A stretch of DNA of 64,000 nt, from the NCBI RefSeq assembly GCF_003570905.1, contig NZ_QXJM01000039.1:1240001-1304000 (forward strand), given 5' to 3'. A program made the position numbers and the translations under genes. The stretch comes from Cohnella faecalis (GTDB taxonomy: Bacteria; Bacillota; Bacilli; Paenibacillales; Paenibacillaceae). The notes beneath the pieces are model-generated. The model had not been told where the DNA came from. It worked only from the letters and a program-made list of their open reading frames with translations, and did not search any database. Shown one piece after another: positions 2,336-50,552 of this stretch (the stretch's first letter is position 1; each line of letters starts with the position of its first letter).

Positions 2336-2385
2336 ATCAGTGATTGACAGACATTCTTGCCGCTTTCGACGAAGATGAGGATGGT

Positions 2386-2562
2386 TGTACGATTATTCAT
2401 ACAAAATGTCCGCTCGCGGAGTCAAGTCTGTCCCTTTTGTGCGATTTTTCATACAAACTAGCGTCGTGAAGCACGGAATTCCCCGATTTTGTATGATTTT
2501 TCGTACAAATGTGTTCGCACCATGCGATTACTGAGCAAATGGGTATGATTTTTCATACAAAC
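2386..2562. repeat. Four-unit palindromic array with exact 52-bp pitch
   Basis: Four degenerate copies of an inverted repeat with consensus TTTGTATGA, TTTT, TCATACAAA lie in the gap between two leftward genes. The same base of the motif (the G of GATT) falls at 2391, 2443, 2495 and 2547, a spacing of exactly 52 bp three times. The 30-bp sequences between copies are unrelated. The right arm TCATACAAA is better kept than the left arm, and several changes preserve pairing or give G-T pairs. No coding frame explains the unit. It could be a set of in-phase operators, a string of RNA hairpins, or a CRISPR-like element without cas genes. Confidence 0.75.
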
Positions 2563-3090: not shown

Positions 3091-3303
3091 TGCACTAACG
3101 CCTCCTGTATCGGATGTTGTCGCACCCAGTGTATGCGAATGAGGGCGAATGCGTATGGTCAAGAGCCTAATGTCGACAAATACGCTTGGAAAAAGACGTA
3201 AAAACGTGGCACTCTCTCTTCGAGTATGCTAAACTACACTTCATGAGAATGGATTTCAAAGCTATGCTCTACATATTAATGCAATAGCGGAAAGTTGAGG
3301 ACC

Positions 3304-4855
3304 ATGACGGACAAAAACAACTCAGTTGCCGCTCATGAAGCGGTCTATTTCATTTTTGGAGCTACGGGAGATTTGGCTCGTCGCAAGCTGTTCCCAGCCC
3401 TTTACAGCCTGTACAGGGAAGGCAAGCTCGGTGAGCGCTTTGCGATCGTCGGCCTTGCACGGCGCCCGCGCACGAATTTGCAATTCCGCGACGACGTCTA
3501 TGAATCGATTCAAGAATTTTGCCGGTATAAGCCGAGCGAGATCGAAGCGTGGCAGTCGTTCGCCGAGCATTTCTCTTACCAGCCTCTCGACATTGGCAAT
3601 ATCGATGCGTTCACCGGCCTGAAGGCTCATACGGAAGAGCTGGAAGCCAAATATTCCATCCCCGGCAACCGCTTGTTTTTACTTGGCGCTTGCTCCCGAG
3701 CTGTTCGGCACCGTATCGCGCAATTTGCGCGACGGTGGCATGCTGGAAAGCTCCGGCTGGCACCGTCTGGTCATCGAGAAGCCGTTCGGTTACGACTATC
3801 CGTCCGCCGAGCGCCTGAACGAAGAGATCCGTCTCGTATTCAAGGAAGAAGAAGTGTTCCGGATCGACCATTACCTCGGCAAGGAAATGGTGCAGAACAT
3901 CGAGGTTATCCGGTTCGCCAACGCGTTCTTCGAGCCTCTCTGGAACAAAAACCATATTGCGAACGTGCAAATTACGCTGGCCGAGACGGTCGGCGTCGAA
4001 GAGCGCGGAGCTTATTACAACAAGTCCGGAGCTTTGCGCGACATGGTTCAGAACCATATGCTGCAAATGCTGACGATGATCGCTATGGAGCCGCCAAGCC
4101 GTCTCGACGCCGAGCACATTCGCGACGAGAAGGTTAAAGCTCTTCGTTCGATCCGGCCGTTCGAGGCCGACGAGGGCGTGCGCTCGCGCATCGTTCGCGG
4201 CCAATACTCGGATGGCTCTGCACGAGGCAAAGCGCTGAAAGGCTACCGCAACGAGGATTCCGTCGATCCGACGTCGGTTACGGAGACGTTCTTCGCGGCT
4301 CGCGTACTCGTCGACAATTTCCGCTGGGCGGGAGTGCCGTTCTACGTTCGTACGGGCAAGCGGCTTCCGGTGAAGTCGACCGAAATCGTCATCGAATTCA
4401 AGAACGTTCCGAACAACGTGTTGTTCGCTAACAAGCAAGATTTGAATCCTAATCTGCTCGTTATTCGCGTCAACCCGATGGAAGGCATTTACATCAAGAT
4501 CAATGCCAAAAAGCCGGGCAACGACATGACGATCCAGCCGGTTGCAATGGAGTTTTGCCAAAGCTGCCAGATCGGCATCAATACTCCGGAAGCGTACGAG
4601 CGTCTTATTTTCGACGCGGCTCGCGGAGATCACACCTACTTCACGCGTTGGGACGAGCTGGCGGTCGCTTGGAAGCTGATCGATCCGATCGCTTCGGCTT
4701 GGCATGAGGACTCCTCGGATCTGACCTTCTATCCGGCGGGCTCCTGGGGTCCGGAGGAAGCGGACAAGCTGCTCGCCGCCGACGGCTTCCATTGGTGGCC
4801 GGTCAACGGGCAAGAGGAAGACAACGTCGTTTGGGTATCCAATTCCGGGAAATAA
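3304..4855 (+). CDS. zwf: Glucose-6-phosphate 1-dehydrogenase (one-base frameshift)
   Basis: The enzyme oxidises glucose 6-phosphate with NADP at entry to the pentose phosphate pathway. The N-terminal dinucleotide motif GATGDLARRKLFPAL, the EKPFG segment and the active-site FRIDHYLGKE are all present. The joined product would be about 516 residues, the family's usual size. The frame breaks at a run of five T at 3676-3680, where four would give the expected R-L-F-Y-L-A. This is one of the few apparent insertions in the window. ATG 3304 is preceded by GGAAAG and GAGG. The cyclase gene follows after 21 bases. Confidence 0.9.
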
Positions 4856-5661: not shown

Positions 5662-8600
5662 ATGAAACAATGGTTATCGCGTTGGAATAGCGGGGAGTCG
5701 GGCAAGGTTGCTTTGTTGTTCGTATATTTGTTTTGCGTGGCATCGGCGTCGACGGTCGGAAGAACGGCTGCGGACGCGCTTTTTTTATCGCATTTCGATT
5801 CCGGGCTGTTGTCCAAAATGTATTTGCCCCAGTCGGCGGCGCTCATTCTTGTCGGGTACTTGTTCCAGAAGTTCAGCCATCGCATTCGGATAGACAAGCT
5901 TATTATCGGCTTGATTCCGATGGTGACGCTGCTTGTTCTCGCTTCGCGGATCGGCGTGGGGCTGGAATTTCGCTGGGTAATTCCGGTCATGTACGTAGCT
6001 TACGATGTGTTCAATTTTCTAATGATCGTCTGCTTCTGGCAACTGGCTTCGGCGGTGCTGGATCAGCGCAAAGCGAAAAAAACGATCGGTTTGGTCGGAA
6101 GCGGAGGCATTACGGGAGGCATCGTCAGCGGTTTCGGCTTGAAGCTGATCGTGCCGCTTGTCGGAACGGCGAATTTAATTTATTTTTATGCCGGTCTCCA
6201 AATATCGGCCTTGGTCATGGTACTGCTTCTTACGAGAATCAGCGATTTGTCGGCCGAAGGCGCGGCTTCCCCGGGAAAATCCGCGGAGCGTCCCCTGCCA
6301 AAGCAAGCAAGCGGAAGCCCGGAGCCGAATCGGGGCTATTCGCCAACGTTCCTCACCTGAAATATATGGCTATCATGTCCGCCACGCTCGTGCTGTCGCT
6401 GACTTTTATCGACTATCAATTCAAGGTTGTCTTGCGAGGGTCGCTGCAAAATGACGAGCTGGCCGGCTTCATGGGAAGCTTCTACGGTTTTGCGGGGCTG
6501 CTTGCGCTCGCCGTGCAAGTGTTCGCGGCAGGCAAGCTGCTCACCCGGTTCGGTGTCATGACGGCTATCCTCGTCTTCCCGGCCGCGCTGTTCATGGGGA
6601 GCGTCGCGATGATGTTCATGCCCGTGCTAGCCCTGGCAGTAGCGGTCAAAGGCAGCGACAAGGTGCTCGGCGATACGATCAATTCGTCGGTCAACCAATT
6701 GGTGATGCTTCCGATTCCCGCCGAGTGGCGGAACAGAGCCAAAGGCTTCCTCGACGGCGTCGTTCGGAACGGAGCCAAGGGGATCGCCGGAATTAGCTTG
6801 ATTGCGCTCTCTCCGTTGCTGTCGATCGAGCAGTTCAGTATCGTCGTCGCGATATTGCTTGTCGGCTGCATCGTGGCGGCAGTTAAAGTGAAGGGCGCTT
6901 ACTTGAAGACTCTGTTATCCACCTTGAAAACCCGCGGAAGCGGGGATATGGACGATGCCGAGCTGGATTTTATGGACCCCGCCAGTATCGATTTGCTTAC
7001 GGAAACGCTAAAAAGCACGGACAAGCAGCAGGTGATCTACTCGCTTCGAACTCTATGCGGCATGGAAAGCTTCGATCTGATGCCAAGCGTGGCGGCGCTT
7101 CTCCGCCATCCGGCGGAGGAGGTCGTCGTCGAGACGCTTATTCAGATGGAGAGAAGGAAGTTTCCGCGCATGGAGGAAGAGCTCCTCGCTTTTCTGCCGG
7201 CTACCGCCGGAGCGATCAAAGCTCAGGCGCTGATCACGCTGGCTGCTACGGCGGACGAACGGTTTTTGGACTTTCTGTCGGACAATCTCGAAGACGACGG
7301 CAGGGAAATTAAAGCGGGAGCGATAGCCGGACTGATTAAGTACTACGGAATCGAAGGGATGTTCCGCGCCGTCGGGACGCTGAAGGAGTTGCTTGAAAGC
7401 CGGGACGAGGAAGACAGGATGGCGATGGCGGCGTTGTTCGGCCAGATCGGCATCAAGCTCTTTTACAAGCCGCTTATTCCTCTGCTCAAGGACGGCTCGC
7501 CGCTCGTTCGCAAATTCGCCCTACAGTCCGCCGCTCGCCTCCAAGTGCCGGAGCTTGCGTCTTATGCGGTAGCTCTGCTGCGGAACAGCGATACGCGTCC
7601 TCACGCTCTGGAAGCTCTCGCTTCCTACGACGAGGCGCTGATCATTCCGTTGCTGGAGCCTTATTTTGCGGAAGCGGCAGAGGCTCCTTTGCATCTTCCG
7701 AAAGTGTACGAGCGAATCGGCACCCAAGGCGCGCTCGATAAGCTGCTTGCTCATTATTCGGCTTCTGGATTTGAGATGAAAGGGATGCTTCTGGAAGCGA
7801 TGACCCGTATGAAGAGCGGTCATGCGCAAGCGGACAAGGCGAAGGTGACGGAGCTAATCGTCAAGGAAGCGGAGCTGTATGAGCGGTTCTCGGAAAAGAT
7901 GGCTCGACTCGGAGAGAATGCCGCCTACGAACAAGTGCTGGAAGCGGCGAGCCAGCTTCGATCCACGATCGTCCGCCGCATTTTTCAATTGCTGGAGCTT
8001 ATTTACGAAGCGGGTACGATACAAGCGGTGTACTCGAGTTGGTCGGAAGGGGATGCCCGCCAGCAGGCCAATGCGATGGAAGTGATGGATCAGCTTCTGC
8101 AAGGCCAGGTACGAATCGAACTAGCCCGGATCATGACGGCGAGAGGGGCGGAGCCGGGCGTTCACTCGAAAGGGTCGGCGCAATCGTCCGAAATTAACGA
8201 CTCCTTTTCTTGGCTTCTTGAGCAGGGGGACGAATGGCTGGCCGATGTCATAAGGCACACTCTTGGAACCGGACTCCCGGAGGAACGAGCGGAGCTCGCC
8301 GAGAGGATGGAACGCGTGCGCGTTCTGGCCAAGTATCCGTTGTTCAGAGAGTTGACGGGCCGCGGCTTGTCCGCAGTGGCGGCTTCCTTACGAACGGTTC
8401 GCGTTGAGCGGGGAGACGTTATTTTTCGAGTGAACGATCCGGGCGATTCGTTGTACCTGTTACAGAGCGGAACGGTCGGCATTTATCGGAACGACGAGAA
8501 AATCGACGAGAGAAAACAAGGGGATTCGTTCGGTCAAACGGCTATTCTGGTCAACAGACCGCGAACCGCCACCGTTATCGCGGAAGAAAACGGCGTGCTT

Positions 8601-9248
8601 TGGCGGCTCGATTCGGCAGATTTTTACGACACGCTGTTCGACAAAACCGATATCGCAATGGCCATGATGAAGATGCTGTCCCGCAGGCTTCGCACGGTGC
8701 TCGCTCACCATCACGATCCGGCAGCGAACGAGCCGGAGGAAGCTGCCGAGCCGCCGGAAGGAGCCGAGCTTGCAGCCGCCGCCAAAGAAAATTTATCGGA
8801 GACGACGGCGGACGCGGCTTCGGAAGCGCAGGATGCGCAAGGCTTATTGCTGCGAAGGGTGCTCGTCCTTCAGAAGATCGGGCTGTTCGCTCATCTATCG
8901 CAGGAGGACATCGTTCAGTTGGCGCGGATCGTGGAAGAAGTTGCGTACGAGGCGGGGGAAACGGTTGTCCGGATGGACGAGTATGGAGACGCGTTATTCG
9001 GCATTATCGAGGGCAACGTCCGTGTTCATCGGGGCGGCGATACGGTCGCCATACTCGGCGAAGGAGATTGCTTCGGCGAGATGGCGGTCATCGACAGCGG
9101 TCCTCGGTCGGCGAGCTGTACCGCCGTCGTTCCGACGGTTCTGCTTCAGCTCCATCGGGAGCAAGTATTCTCGTTATGCGCCCAGAACATGGATGTGCTC
9201 AAGTGTTTGATGCGCGTGCTTTCCGACAGGCTGAAGGGATTGTTGTAG
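5662..9248 (+). CDS. Translocase-like (Npt/TLC) membrane protein fused to HEAT repeats and two cNMP-binding domains (one-base frameshift)
   Basis: The joined product is about 1,195 residues. Residues 1 to about 400 are strongly hydrophobic with about ten membrane segments and resemble the Npt1/Npt2-type nucleotide (ADP/ATP) transporter family. Residues about 430-790 are helical HEAT-like units, for example GSPLVRKFALQSAARLQ. Two cyclic-nucleotide-binding-like domains follow, near 900-1010 and 1075-1190; the second has GEGDCFGEMAVI and GPRSAS. The frame breaks in GGGG at 6332-6335, where one more G would give N-R-G-L-F-A-N. Transport of nucleotides is inferred from the family. The soluble part suggests ligand control or a scaffold role. 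Confidence 0.75.
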
Positions 9249-16457: not shown

Positions 16458-19400
16458 ATGAAGAAGAGCGGCACGTTCGGCTTGGTGAGACGTGTTTTTT
16501 CGTTATGCGTCATTTTCGCTTTGGCTGCGCCATCGCTTGCAACGAATCGCGGCGTGGTGCCCGCGGCATTCGCTTCCAGTGTTCCGGCGGAGCCGAAGAT
16601 TGCGATTGCTGCGGGAGGGAGCCACTCGCTTGCTCTGAAAGAGGACGGAACGGTATGGACATGGGGCGAGAACGAATTCGGCCAGCTCGGGGCGGAAGGG
16701 TCGGGCGACAGACTTACGCCGGGTCAAGTGGATGGATTAAGCGGAATTGTCGACATTGCCGGCGGCTATGCCATTCCGTTGCTCTGGACGGGGAAGGGAA
16801 CGTATGGACATGGGGGCGCAACGACTTCGGTCAGCTCGGGGACGGCACGAAGACGAACCGTTTCGTTCCTGCGAAGGTGGCGGGCATCGGGGGGTGACGG
16901 CTATCGCCAGCGGCGATTATCGTACATTGGCTTTGACAAGCGACGGATCGGTATGGAACTGGGGAAGCAACGAAGCCGGTCAGCTTGGGGACGGCACGGC
17001 TGTGCAGAGCTCCGCCGTACCGGTTAAGGTGAGCGGTTTCGGGTCCGGTCGGAAGGCAATCGCAATCGCGGGAGGCAACGGCCCATTCGTCGCGCTTGCT
17101 TCTGACGGAACGGTATGGACGTGGGGCTACAATGCGTTCGGTCAGTTGGGAGACGGGACGAAGGATAATCGTTCCCAGCCGGTTCAAGCGATCTTGCCCG
17201 GCTCGGGCAAGGCAATCGCGGTTGCGGCGGGCACTGGCCATACCGCCATTCTCGAAGATGACGGGACGGTATGGGCATGGGGAAGCAACTCGGTCGGCCA
17301 GCTTGGCGACGATTCGGCAGCCGAGAGGCTGTCACCCGCGAAGGTAGCGGGGATCAGCGAGGTCGGCTCTATATCGGCGGGTTACTACCATACGCTTGCT
17401 TGAAAGAGGACGGAACGGTATGGACATGGGGGCAGAACAATGCCGGCCAGCTTGGGAACGGCGATAAGACGATGGCGAGCGCGCGGCGCCCGTGCAAACG
17501 TCGATTTTGACCGATGTCGTCGCCATTGCCAAAGGCAGCCGCCACAATATCGCTCTTAGAAGCGATGGAACGGTATGGACTTGGGGCTTCAATCTTAGCG
17601 GTCAGCTCGGAGACGGCAAGCGAGTCGATCAATATGTACCGACGCAAGTTACGGGTTTGAGTCTGAAGGTTCCCGTCCTGACGCTGGACTCCATGATTTT
17701 GCGTTGGCAAAAGAAAGCGAGAAACAGCTGACGGTAACGGCGAATTATACGGACGGAACAACGAAGGACGTAACGTTGCTCGCAGCCTACGAGTCTTCCG
17801 ATTCGGCAGTCGCTTCGGTAAGCGAAGAGGGCCTCGTCAAGGGGCTGACTGCCGGACAGACGGCCGCCATTACCGCGACATTCGAAGGTCGGAAGGTGTC
17901 CGCTACAGTTACGGTTACGGCGGAGCTTCCCGTTTTGACGCTGGATTCGTATGATTTTACATTGGCAAAAGGAAGCACGAAGCAATTGGCGGTAACGGCA
18001 AGCTATGCGGACGGAAGCACGAAGGAAGTCACAGCGTTTGCGACATATCTGTCTTCCGATCCGGCGGTTGCTTCGGTGAGCGCAGCGGGTCTCGTCAAGG
18101 GACTGACCGCTGGACAGACGACTGTCGTTACCGCGACATACGAGAAGCAGAAGGTATCCTCAACGGTCAGAGTCGCGAGCCCGCCGGAAACTCCGGTTAT
18201 TTCTTTGAATGCGTATGATTTCATCGTCGTTCAAGGAAACACGAGGCAATTAGTAGTGACGGCGAACTATTCGGATGGGAGAACCGAAGACGTGACCTCG
18301 CTATCCGTTTTTCAGTCATCCGCTCCGGAGTCGGTCTCTGTCAGCGCGGCGGGCCTGGTGACTGGATTAAGCTCGGGACAGCAGGCGACTATTACCGTCA
18401 CTTATCGAGGTCAGTCGTTATCTGCCTCCGTAAGAGTGGTTAGTTCGCCGGAAGCTCCGGTTATCGTTTTGAACAGCTACGATTTTACGTTGGTTGCAGG
18501 CAGCGTGAAGCAGCTGCTCGTGACGGCGAGCGACGGGGATGGAGGCACGGAGGACGTTACGGCTTTAACGGCGTTCCGATCGTCCGACCCGGCAGTCGCC
18601 ACGGCGAGCGCCGAAGGGCTCGTGACGGCGATAACCGCCGGGCAAGCGGTCGTAACCGCAACATACTTGGGGCAATCGGTATCGGCAACGGTTCATGTTA
18701 CGAATAAGACCGTAACGAGTCCGGGCTCGGGAGGAGCGGGTATGCCTCCTTTGATATGGACTTTCGATCCGCCGGACTGGATGACGGGGCTGTCGCCGTC
18801 CTCTTCGTGGAATACAGCCGTAGGGAGAGAAGAAGCTTCGGGCGAGGCGATCTATCGCTTGAACGGAGAGTCCGCGATGCGGCTTGCGAAGACGGCGTCC
18901 GCGAATACGAAAGTATGGACGATCGGCGTCAAACAATCCGGGAGCTCGGTCTTAGTCGTCCCCTTCCCGGCTGCGAAAGCGGCGTTTGACATATCCGGAG
19001 GCTCCGGAACGATCCTTTTTGCGACGGAGGCGGGCTCATTTTCGTTGCCGCTGTCTGTCCTTGTCCTGAAAGCGAACGGAGCTTTGGAAGGGAATGAAGG
19101 GGAAATTCGTATTGAGATTTCTCCGTCCGAAGGGCCGGGGGCAGCTTGAAAACGGCATGGCAGGCCAGCGGGATCACCCTTCTCGGTGCACTGGCCGTTA
19201 CGTTCGAGCTTACGATAACTAGCGGCGGGACGAGTCGAACGATCGACGACTTCGGAGATTCATTTGTCGTCCGTTCGTTCCCGGTCGGCAACGGCCCGAT
19301 CGATTCGGAGCGGACATCCGTGTTTTACGGCAAGGAAGGAGAGGGGGAGCCCGGCTTTGCTCCGGCCCGCTTTTTCAAGGACCCGGTCGGCGTCTACCAT

Positions 19401-49844: not shown

Positions 49845-50552
49845 CCCCGCTGATTGGTCGGAATGGCGGAGACGGCGGGTAACAATGGTACGCGGTCCCA
49901 CTGATTAGGCGGATCGGCGGCGATGGCGGGTAACAATGGTACGCGGTCCCACTGATTGGTCGGAATGGCGGCGGTGGCGAGGTAACAATGGTACGTCGTC
50001 CCACTGATTGGTCGGAATGGCGGCGTTGACGGGTAACAATGGTACGTCGTCCCACTGATTGAGCGGAATGGCGGCGATGGCGGGGTAACTATGGTACGTC
50101 GTCCCACTGATTGGTCGGAATGGCGGTGGTGGCGGGGTAACAATGGTACGTCGTCCCACTGATTGGTCGGAATGGCGGCGGTGGAGTAACAATGGTACGT
50201 CGTCCCACTGATTGAGCGGAATGGCAGCGATGGCGGGGTACAATGGTACGTCGTCCCACTTATTGGGCGGAATGGCGGCGGCGGTGGAGTAACAATGGTA
50301 CGTCGTCCCAGTGATTGGGAGGAATGGCGACGGTGGTGGAGTAACAATGGTACGTCGTCCCAGTGATTGAGCGGAATGGCGGCGATGGCGGGGGAACAAT
50401 GGTACGTAGTCCCACTTATTGGGCGGAATGGCGGCGCTGTTGGAGTAACAATGGTACGCGGTCCCGCTGATTGGGCGGAATGGCGGCGTTGACGGGTAAC
50501 AATGGTACGTCGTCACAGTGATTGGGAGGAATGGCGACAGTGGTGGTGGGGA
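49845..50552. repeat. Array of 13 degenerate units with 49-52 bp pitch
   Basis: The core AACAATGGTACGTCGTCCCA recurs with (A)ATGGTAC beginning at 49884, 49935, 49987, 50038, 50090, 50142, 50191, 50242, 50294, 50346, 50398, 50450 and 50501. Each unit continues with CTGATTGG and GGAATGGCGG and a short variable G-rich stretch. Part-units flank both ends. The pitch is usually 51 or 52, not a multiple of three, and the plus strand has stops in each unit, so it is not coding. It ends 26 bases before the promoter of the serC transcript. Confidence 0.9.

Follow-up and report, generated by a model that had tools for sequence, protein, structure and literature searches.

An Apparently Decayed Array in Cohnella faecalis Probably Belongs to a Dispersed, Regularly Pitched Repeat Family of a Dedicated Nuclease-like DNA-binding Protein

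The window, by which we mean the whole 64,000-nucleotide stretch of Cohnella faecalis DNA that was analyzed, contains four copies of a 22-bp dyad, TTTGTAYGA-N4-TCRTACAAA, which a pattern search placed on the plus strand at 2384..2405 (GTTGTACGATTATTCATACAAA), 2436..2457 (TTTGTGCGATTTTTCATACAAA), 2488..2509 (TTTGTATGATTTTTCGTACAAA), and 2540..2561 (TGGGTATGATTTTTCATACAAA), the last of these having an altered outer half-site. The start-to-start distances are 52, 52, and 52 bp, and the pattern TTTGTATGATTTTTCATACAAA, allowing up to three mismatches, finds these four matches in the window and none in 100 dinucleotide shuffles, which bears out the four copies at an exact 52-bp pitch described in the first-pass annotation. 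Within 2406..2539 the three 30-bp intervals (2406-2435, 2458-2487, and 2510-2539) are mutually unrelated, with pairwise identities of 7-30%. The array is preceded by a leader at 2348..2383 that blastn between loci also found in a two-unit array, G000:C52; this match runs from 2348 to 2458 in the window at 94.6% identity over 112 bp and takes in the leader, the first dyad, and the first interval, and by eye the leader resembles the A-type interval in the arrays of a relative.

The array lies upstream of a leftward ORF that starts at 2289, as the first-pass annotation had it; by eye, the ORFs 2056-2289 and 1763-2059 may be one leftward frame that has been split. The accompanying claim that the array follows a terminator fared less well, in that a consensus scan of 2200-2800 gave no terminator; an inverted repeat with a run of T after it can be made out by eye only, on the minus strand at ~2644-2690. 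Two other frames in the window also appear by eye to be split by a frameshift, one being glucose-6-phosphate dehydrogenase-like (ORFs 3295-4137 and 3683-4855) and the other transporter-like (ORFs 5662-6360 and 5733-9248), and all three cases (1763-2289, 3295-4855, and 5662-9248) are possibly sequencing errors. A second array, of another family, was located by TRF at 49846..50543, where ~13.6 units with a period of 51-52 bp carry the weakly palindromic motif AATGGTACGTCGTCCCACTG (arm score 3-4 of 9).

The dyad of the first array belongs to a repeat that is dispersed through relatives of the window's genome. Matches with up to three mismatches occur in 13 of 37 genomes of the genus, and with up to two mismatches in 43 of 394 genomes of the family, at 1 to 242 per genome and with none for the reversed-pattern control. 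In a collection of 84,980 species the exact degenerate dyad was found in 67 stretches, 65 of which are from Paenibacillus or Cohnella, while the other two hold single matches with no neighbor at 50-53 bp. A viral or plasmid origin was considered and rejected, as the exact dyad is found 0 times in viral contigs, a plasmid search with one array as query gave no match, and the protein described below scarcely occurs in viral contigs (none with a single-sequence query, and one relative of 28% with a profile).

The 193 loci fetched gave 126 non-redundant arrays, in which, counting units with at most four mismatches, 716 neighbors lie 30-75 bp apart, of which 610 are at 52 bp, 70 at 51, and 16 at 53, the opposite of the scattered repeat with no preference for 52-bp spacing that the first-pass annotation had named as its refutation. 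The arrays reach 31 units in length and are mostly intergenic (63 of 76 have no spanning ORF of 90 amino acids). They have no clear preference for gene orientation, with flanking pairs of ++ in 24, +- in 21, -+ in 16, and -- in 15 of these 76 arrays, and so lend no support to a function linked to the leftward promoter.

Array anatomy was viewed at 15 loci of the relative G002, at 20 of Cohnella xylanilytica (G035), and at 14 of 20 of Paenibacillus sp. J5C2022 (G367). In G367, whose 18 arrays have 163 intervals, the intervals of one array are on average 0.77 identical and those of different arrays 0.34, against a random value of 0.27, with 8.5% of the between-array interval pairs exceeding 0.6 identity, and the dyads themselves are 0.89 identical between arrays. 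The earlier statement that the intervals share no sequence is thus correct for the window's array and fails for homogeneous arrays such as these; similarly, the suggestion of selection on spacing rather than on sequence is right insofar as the pitch is kept and the intervals are free, but the dyad sequence is kept as well. Alternate intervals in G367 are more alike than adjacent ones (0.81 compared with 0.69), suggesting that the arrays grow partly as dimers, and in G002 two interval types can be seen by eye to alternate in many arrays. Many Cohnella xylanilytica arrays draw their intervals from one common family and have conserved left and right ends around a variable number of middle units. 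On four contigs of that genome (C24, C71, C132, and C164) array units lie within ~50 bp of the contig start, so arrays probably break assemblies.

When array flanks were compared with the arrays masked, one gene recurred, among the matches listed, beside the arrays of several genomes, and in P. nanensis (DSM 22867, L141:2532-3212) it is an intact ORF of 227 amino acids adjoining a long array. The proteins of this linked family (~226 amino acids) appear, from weak similarity and motif, to have an N-terminal PD-(D/E)XK (DUF559-like) domain and a C-terminal winged helix. Pfam searches of 46 homologues gave weak DUF559 matches in 20 of them (best E 0.0048), along with the REase family MTES_1575 and HTH, and no Y1 transposase among the best 25 of the 37 families matched. 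The DUF559 score of the first member is 15.9 bits, which is below the cut-off of 20.6, and four further homologues also fall below cut-offs. NCBIfam gave no match for the first member and weak matches for others, the PDB gave weak matches only, mostly to winged helices (best E 0.011), the matches in a PADLOC scan were likewise all weak, and an AlphaFold model from two sequences reached a pLDDT of 36, too low for use. In the alignment of the 46 homologues, D69 and H89 are invariant, as are other residues, and E82 is nearly so (it is D in L241). Two clades differ at residue 84: in the clade-2 sequences listed it is K and the D..(E/D)xK motif is kept, and in the clade-1 sequences listed it is M, with E-[IV]-M-D in place of E-V-K, so that clade 1, the clade of the window dyad, is without the usual catalytic lysine. 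Some paralogues have by eye an E..D..H-like motif.

Homologues were found in 299 of 394 genomes of the family at E<=0.001 and, at E<=1e-15, in 284 of 392 genomes of the order and 44 of 378 of the class; a single genome often has several. Judged from dN/dS values of 0.04-0.26 in 15 pairs, with saturated dS in two pairs, the linked family is under purifying selection. The share of pairs that retain their gene neighbors falls with identity, from 314 of 409 (70-80%) through 239 of 655 (60-70%) to 14 of 1457 (40-50%), and because neighbors are often kept among close relatives, the gene looks mainly vertically inherited.

Of the 30 clade-1 loci fetched for the best homologues, 25 have flanks with three or more dyads spaced 50-53 bp, and 8 of 20 clade-2 loci have arrays. 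For all 79 loci, which include some places fetched twice, arrays were detected at 49 with a strict and at 60 with a relaxed detector, whereas neither the 5x79 shuffles nor the 16 control stretches of the window gave any. When pitches of 20-111 bp were scanned, matches fell only in the bins 48-55 and their doubles, 100-107. Counting one array per locus at 61 loci, again with some places fetched twice, the array is upstream of the gene at 15 and downstream at 46. Both detectors require a dyad and miss short or weak ones, and indeed the second array of the window, which lies within the 16 control stretches, went unseen by them. In a palindrome-blind test of 99 deduplicated loci (L198, L201, L277, L279, and L300 were set aside, as were places fetched more than once), the dominant flank lag was 50-53 or 101-106 bp in 62, compared with 3 of 48 controls, with another dominant lag in 25 and no signal in 12. 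By group, the figures were 15 of 28, 36 of 44, 4 of 6 for the window's own genome, and 3 of 17 for distant loci; of the three positive controls, two are consistent with the second array of the window and one with an isolated 102-bp pair at 18514. Among loci from the class-level search, 3 of 22 pass the strict detector, and repeat finding at six chosen ones gave a spacing of 50-53 bp at L303, L305, and L297 and of 48-49 bp at L272. At L303 and L305, which are from other families of Bacilli, the homologues are distant and shorter palindromes (approximately CGGA-N-TCCG), spaced 50-53 and 61 bp, lie just downstream of the gene.

The half-sites of different families differ greatly (TTTGTACGA, TCTATATGA, TGTATTCGG, TGAGAGGTA, GTAGGTGCA, TCAAGTAGC, TGTGGTGCA, and more), and they do so in step with the protein. 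In a Mantel test of 51 loci, from which ten loci at at least 95% identity had been left out, half-site similarity and protein identity were correlated with r 0.79 (p about 0.0002), and the correlation held within clade 1 (r 0.41, n=25) and within clade 2 (r 0.62, n=26; p about 0.0002 each). Copy number follows the protein type as well. For example, six genomes that have a close gene give 293, 276, 192, 73, 48, and 43 strand matches to the clade-2 site of the GAGAGGTA type, a symmetric site being counted up to twice; two whose gene is related give 81 and 14, and four relatives give 0-3. Reversed controls are 2-6 in the six and the four and 2-8 over all twelve, so that the four relatives are not above control. 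In the order-level search, three of the four site-poor relatives had only distant homologues (E 1e-58 to 1e-65), compared with E 1e-130 to 1e-155 in five of the six site-rich genomes, the fourth site-poor relative being covered by the family-level homologue search only. Similarly, a clade-1 gene, defined by an E of about 1e-90 or better, is present in 14 of 22 genomes with at least five TTTGTAYGA-type matches and in 48 of 372 others (Fisher p 1.7e-7). The other 8 of the 22, including Cohnella xylanilytica and the window's own genome, are site-rich without a close intact gene, suggesting that arrays may outlive the gene. At the level of sequence, these comparisons show a putative nuclease-like family that often adjoins arrays pitched at 51-52 bp, in which different proteins go with different motifs and the two similarities are correlated, and whose host genomes carry many copies of the motif that goes with the given protein type.

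The window's own genome (6.43 Mb in 65 contigs, with an estimated completeness of ~92% and contamination of 6.9%) contains both a broken and an intact form of this pairing. A clade-1 gene is broken in two at C33:1541168-1541353 and 1541415-1541630, beside a two-unit relic array, and few arrays of the window dyad type were found in this genome, among them two near-identical four-unit arrays at C16 and at C33:1.43 Mb. Since its clade-1 gene is broken, the window array looks like a relic, and we consider it probable, to a degree comfortably above an even chance, that it is one decayed representative of a repeat family that is dispersed and belongs to a dedicated DNA-binding, nuclease-like protein. 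The 5.2-kb stretch that carries one four-unit array is present twice at 99.5% identity, at C16:1-5197, which is a contig end, and at C33:1425153-1430358, and this doubling is either a duplication or an assembly artefact. No homologue of the linked protein was found within the window by tblastn. Of six other homologue loci in the genome, four (C33:1041805, 378070, 1309001, and 1337354) adjoin a 51-52-bp array and two have lags of 48 and 38; C33:1309001 and C33:1337354 lie 5 and 33 kb past the end of the window, each with its own 51- or 52-bp array. The paralogue at C33:1041805 is intact, and the motif of its adjoining array has 875 matches in the genome at up to three mismatches (control 0), the places listed running largely in 51-bp steps, with one run beside the gene. 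The second array of the window, at 49846..50543, is one of these. Two members of one class thus seem to lie in the window, the first dying and the second flourishing.

Whether the dyad acts as a double-stranded site or as a hairpin can be addressed from its variation, since selection for a hairpin should give compensated changes in the two arms. Across 124 array consensuses, Watson-Crick counts fit independence at seven of the nine dyad pairs, three of these being almost invariant. At pair 7/16 there are 74 Watson-Crick combinations compared with 60.2 expected (Fisher p 0.015), with 47 arrays being C.A or T.G, and at pair 2/21 there are 111 compared with 105.0. Such near-independent variation of the half-sites is better fitted by a protein dimer on double-stranded DNA than by a hairpin, and we read the dyad as two half-sites for such a dimer, with perhaps a weak contribution of arm pairing. 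Of the two ideas offered by the first-pass annotation, a protein binding on one helix face is accordingly the better one, the half-sites, the pitch of 51-52 bp (approximately five turns), and a co-varying protein with a putative winged helix all pointing that way, if indirectly, and regularly spaced hairpins of RNA or single-stranded DNA are the less favored.

The rival readings that keep to RNA, CRISPR, or ordinary gene regulation are the least probable. A 22-bp repeat with a 30-bp interval does resemble the repeat and spacer of a CRISPR, and a row of structured RNA hairpins is suggested by single copies that can fold at about -2 to -8 kcal/mol and by the small Watson-Crick excess at two of nine dyad positions. 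Against both stand the intervals, which are homogenized within arrays rather than unique and led us to reject CRISPR, the dozens of arrays in some genomes, the remaining variable dyad positions, which have no compensatory change, and Rfam, in which five loci with arrays (L072, L085, L079, L011, and L012) gave as sole match an unrelated FMN riboswitch; we regard this reading as the least probable of all, to the point of being negligible. Operator sites of a conventional transcription factor placed before its target genes would explain a palindrome that keeps to one face of the helix and precedes a leftward ORF, but would hardly explain arrays of up to 31 units, the lack of a clear orientation preference, the 21 of 76 arrays that lie between convergent ORFs, or copy numbers in the hundreds, and they seem very improbable.

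Two further readings accept the protein and differ as to its purpose. The arrays might be chromosomal binding platforms, serving nucleoid organization, condensation, or segregation, for a domesticated and catalytically dead relative of a nuclease, with the five-turn pitch supporting a regular filament and no cutting taking place. The missing catalytic lysine of clade 1 would be explained in this way, as would arrays that are dispersed, mostly intergenic, and free of a clear bias in orientation, and genes that often keep their neighbors and are under purifying selection. A housekeeping chromosome system would not be expected to be so patchy, however, with the window dyad in 43 of 394 genomes and copies ranging from none to hundreds, nor would one expect the proteins to have changed their motif or clade 2 to have retained D..(E/D)xK, and we think this reading unlikely. 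A little less likely again is a restriction-like defense, in which incoming DNA would be attacked by the nuclease, and the arrays would serve as a titrating sink or self-marker and, lying beside the gene, would also control its expression. The domains weakly matched are those of restriction-type nucleases, a genome can have several homologues, and the arrays do adjoin the gene (upstream at 15 and downstream at 46 of 61 loci), but PADLOC matches are weak and hundreds of dispersed copies exceed what autoregulation would need.

The most far-reaching reading, on which we are evenly balanced, is that of a separate class of nuclease and repeat that is independent of RAYT-REP. In it, PD-(D/E)XK-winged-helix proteins of Bacilli would have changed the code of their site, which is a 9-4-9 dyad in most of the families seen, and given rise to dispersed copies of it, tens to hundreds in number. 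Only the site and the five-turn pitch would be kept, because the protein assembles side by side on one face of the helix and drives the copying of arrays, and several such systems would coexist in a genome, some active and some dead, the window having one of each. In the explanation that we favor, that of a decayed array of a dispersed family with its own protein, the winged helices of a protein dimer would read the two 9-bp half-sites of the dyad, the pitch would set neighboring sites on the same face so that proteins could bind side by side, and cutting or nicking at the sites would lead to recombination that expands and homogenizes the arrays and sometimes copies them. Such recombination would keep the dyad and the pitch and leave the intervals free to drift, and the repeats would endure as a population, whether selfish or domesticated, in the way proposed for REPINs and RAYT. 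Binding, cleavage, and mobility of the system are in this account inferred from sequence comparison.

One specific mechanism, an offset-nick duplication in which nicks 26 bp either side of a dyad are followed by a 52-bp fill-in, was rejected: it predicts array ends 15 bp outside the outer dyads, and neither averaged end profiles of 111 arrays nor 37 homogeneous arrays show a boundary at 15 bp, with several arrays ending at the edge of a dyad. A collinear pair of loci from two species, L175 with an array and L184 without one, differs in array presence and is too diverged to reveal a target-site duplication, so that this contrast shows apparent array gain or loss rather than mechanism.

The nearest known system is that of the RAYT proteins and their repeats. 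The RAYT gene is mainly vertically inherited, and the gene described here looks to be so too. REP/REPIN sequences are reported to be high-copy, short extragenic palindromes in regularly spaced clusters, with the dedicated RAYT (TnpA-REP) endonuclease gene lying among them and co-varying with them (PMC2817692, PMC3116915). The present repeats resemble these as high-copy extragenic palindromes that co-vary with a putative enzyme, although the motif of the window's second family is only weakly palindromic. The linked protein is PD-(D/E)XK-like with a winged helix rather than a Y1 HUH transposase, and the dyads look like double-stranded dimer sites that mostly do not have the complementary arm mutations described for REPs. 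The copies here are also mostly direct, at a fixed 51-52-bp pitch and with free intervals, in contrast to inverted pairs, and in four loci with arrays on both sides (L202, L205, L207, and L210) the units were mostly in the same orientation and did not form inverted flanking pairs.

Three other known kinds invite comparison. With the EDxHD, or Vsr-like (DUF559-related), family of homing endonucleases the linked protein shares a weak DUF559 similarity, the E..D..H-like motif of some paralogues, and the position of a nuclease-like gene beside putative recognition sites, but there was no sign here of an intron, an intein, or a split gene, the protein has a C-terminal winged helix, and many tandem sites across the genome take the place of one conserved target. 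BOX elements of Streptococcus pneumoniae have the layout boxA-boxB(n)-boxC, which is similar to the Cohnella xylanilytica arrays with their conserved ends and variable number of middle units, except that here it is the dyad and the pitch that define the middle unit, and the arrays have a linked protein family. CRISPR arrays are alike in the size of repeat and interval (22 and 30 bp) and in having a constant period, but the intervals here are not unique acquisitions, the repeats are degenerate, and some genomes have dozens of arrays. The system would thus work like RAYT-REP and be a member of none of the kinds compared, and with caution we rate it as categorically new. No description of such repeats was recognized in the open-access papers searched or in Rfam, Pfam, NCBIfam, or PADLOC, and we know of no other such system that conserves a pitch while the sequence between sites stays free.

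If this reading is true, it would represent a second, independently evolved way for a bacterial nuclease to maintain a population of short repeats. With its dozens of natural pairs of protein and site, whose relatedness is known, one could test directly by what code the winged helix recognizes its site and why the pitch is five turns. The reading may also account for certain Paenibacillus and Cohnella contigs whose ends lie in arrays of this kind. The dyad also appears to have been exploited by another element, in that at four loci of Paenibacillus sp. J5C2022 (L110, L111, L117, and L124) a MITE-like insert (TACTACTTAG...CTAAGTAGTA) occurs at the same point inside a dyad, flanked on both sides by ~12 bp of dyad (ACGATTTTTCGT or close to it). 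It seems to be a mobile element that targets the dyad, much as certain IS elements do with REPs.
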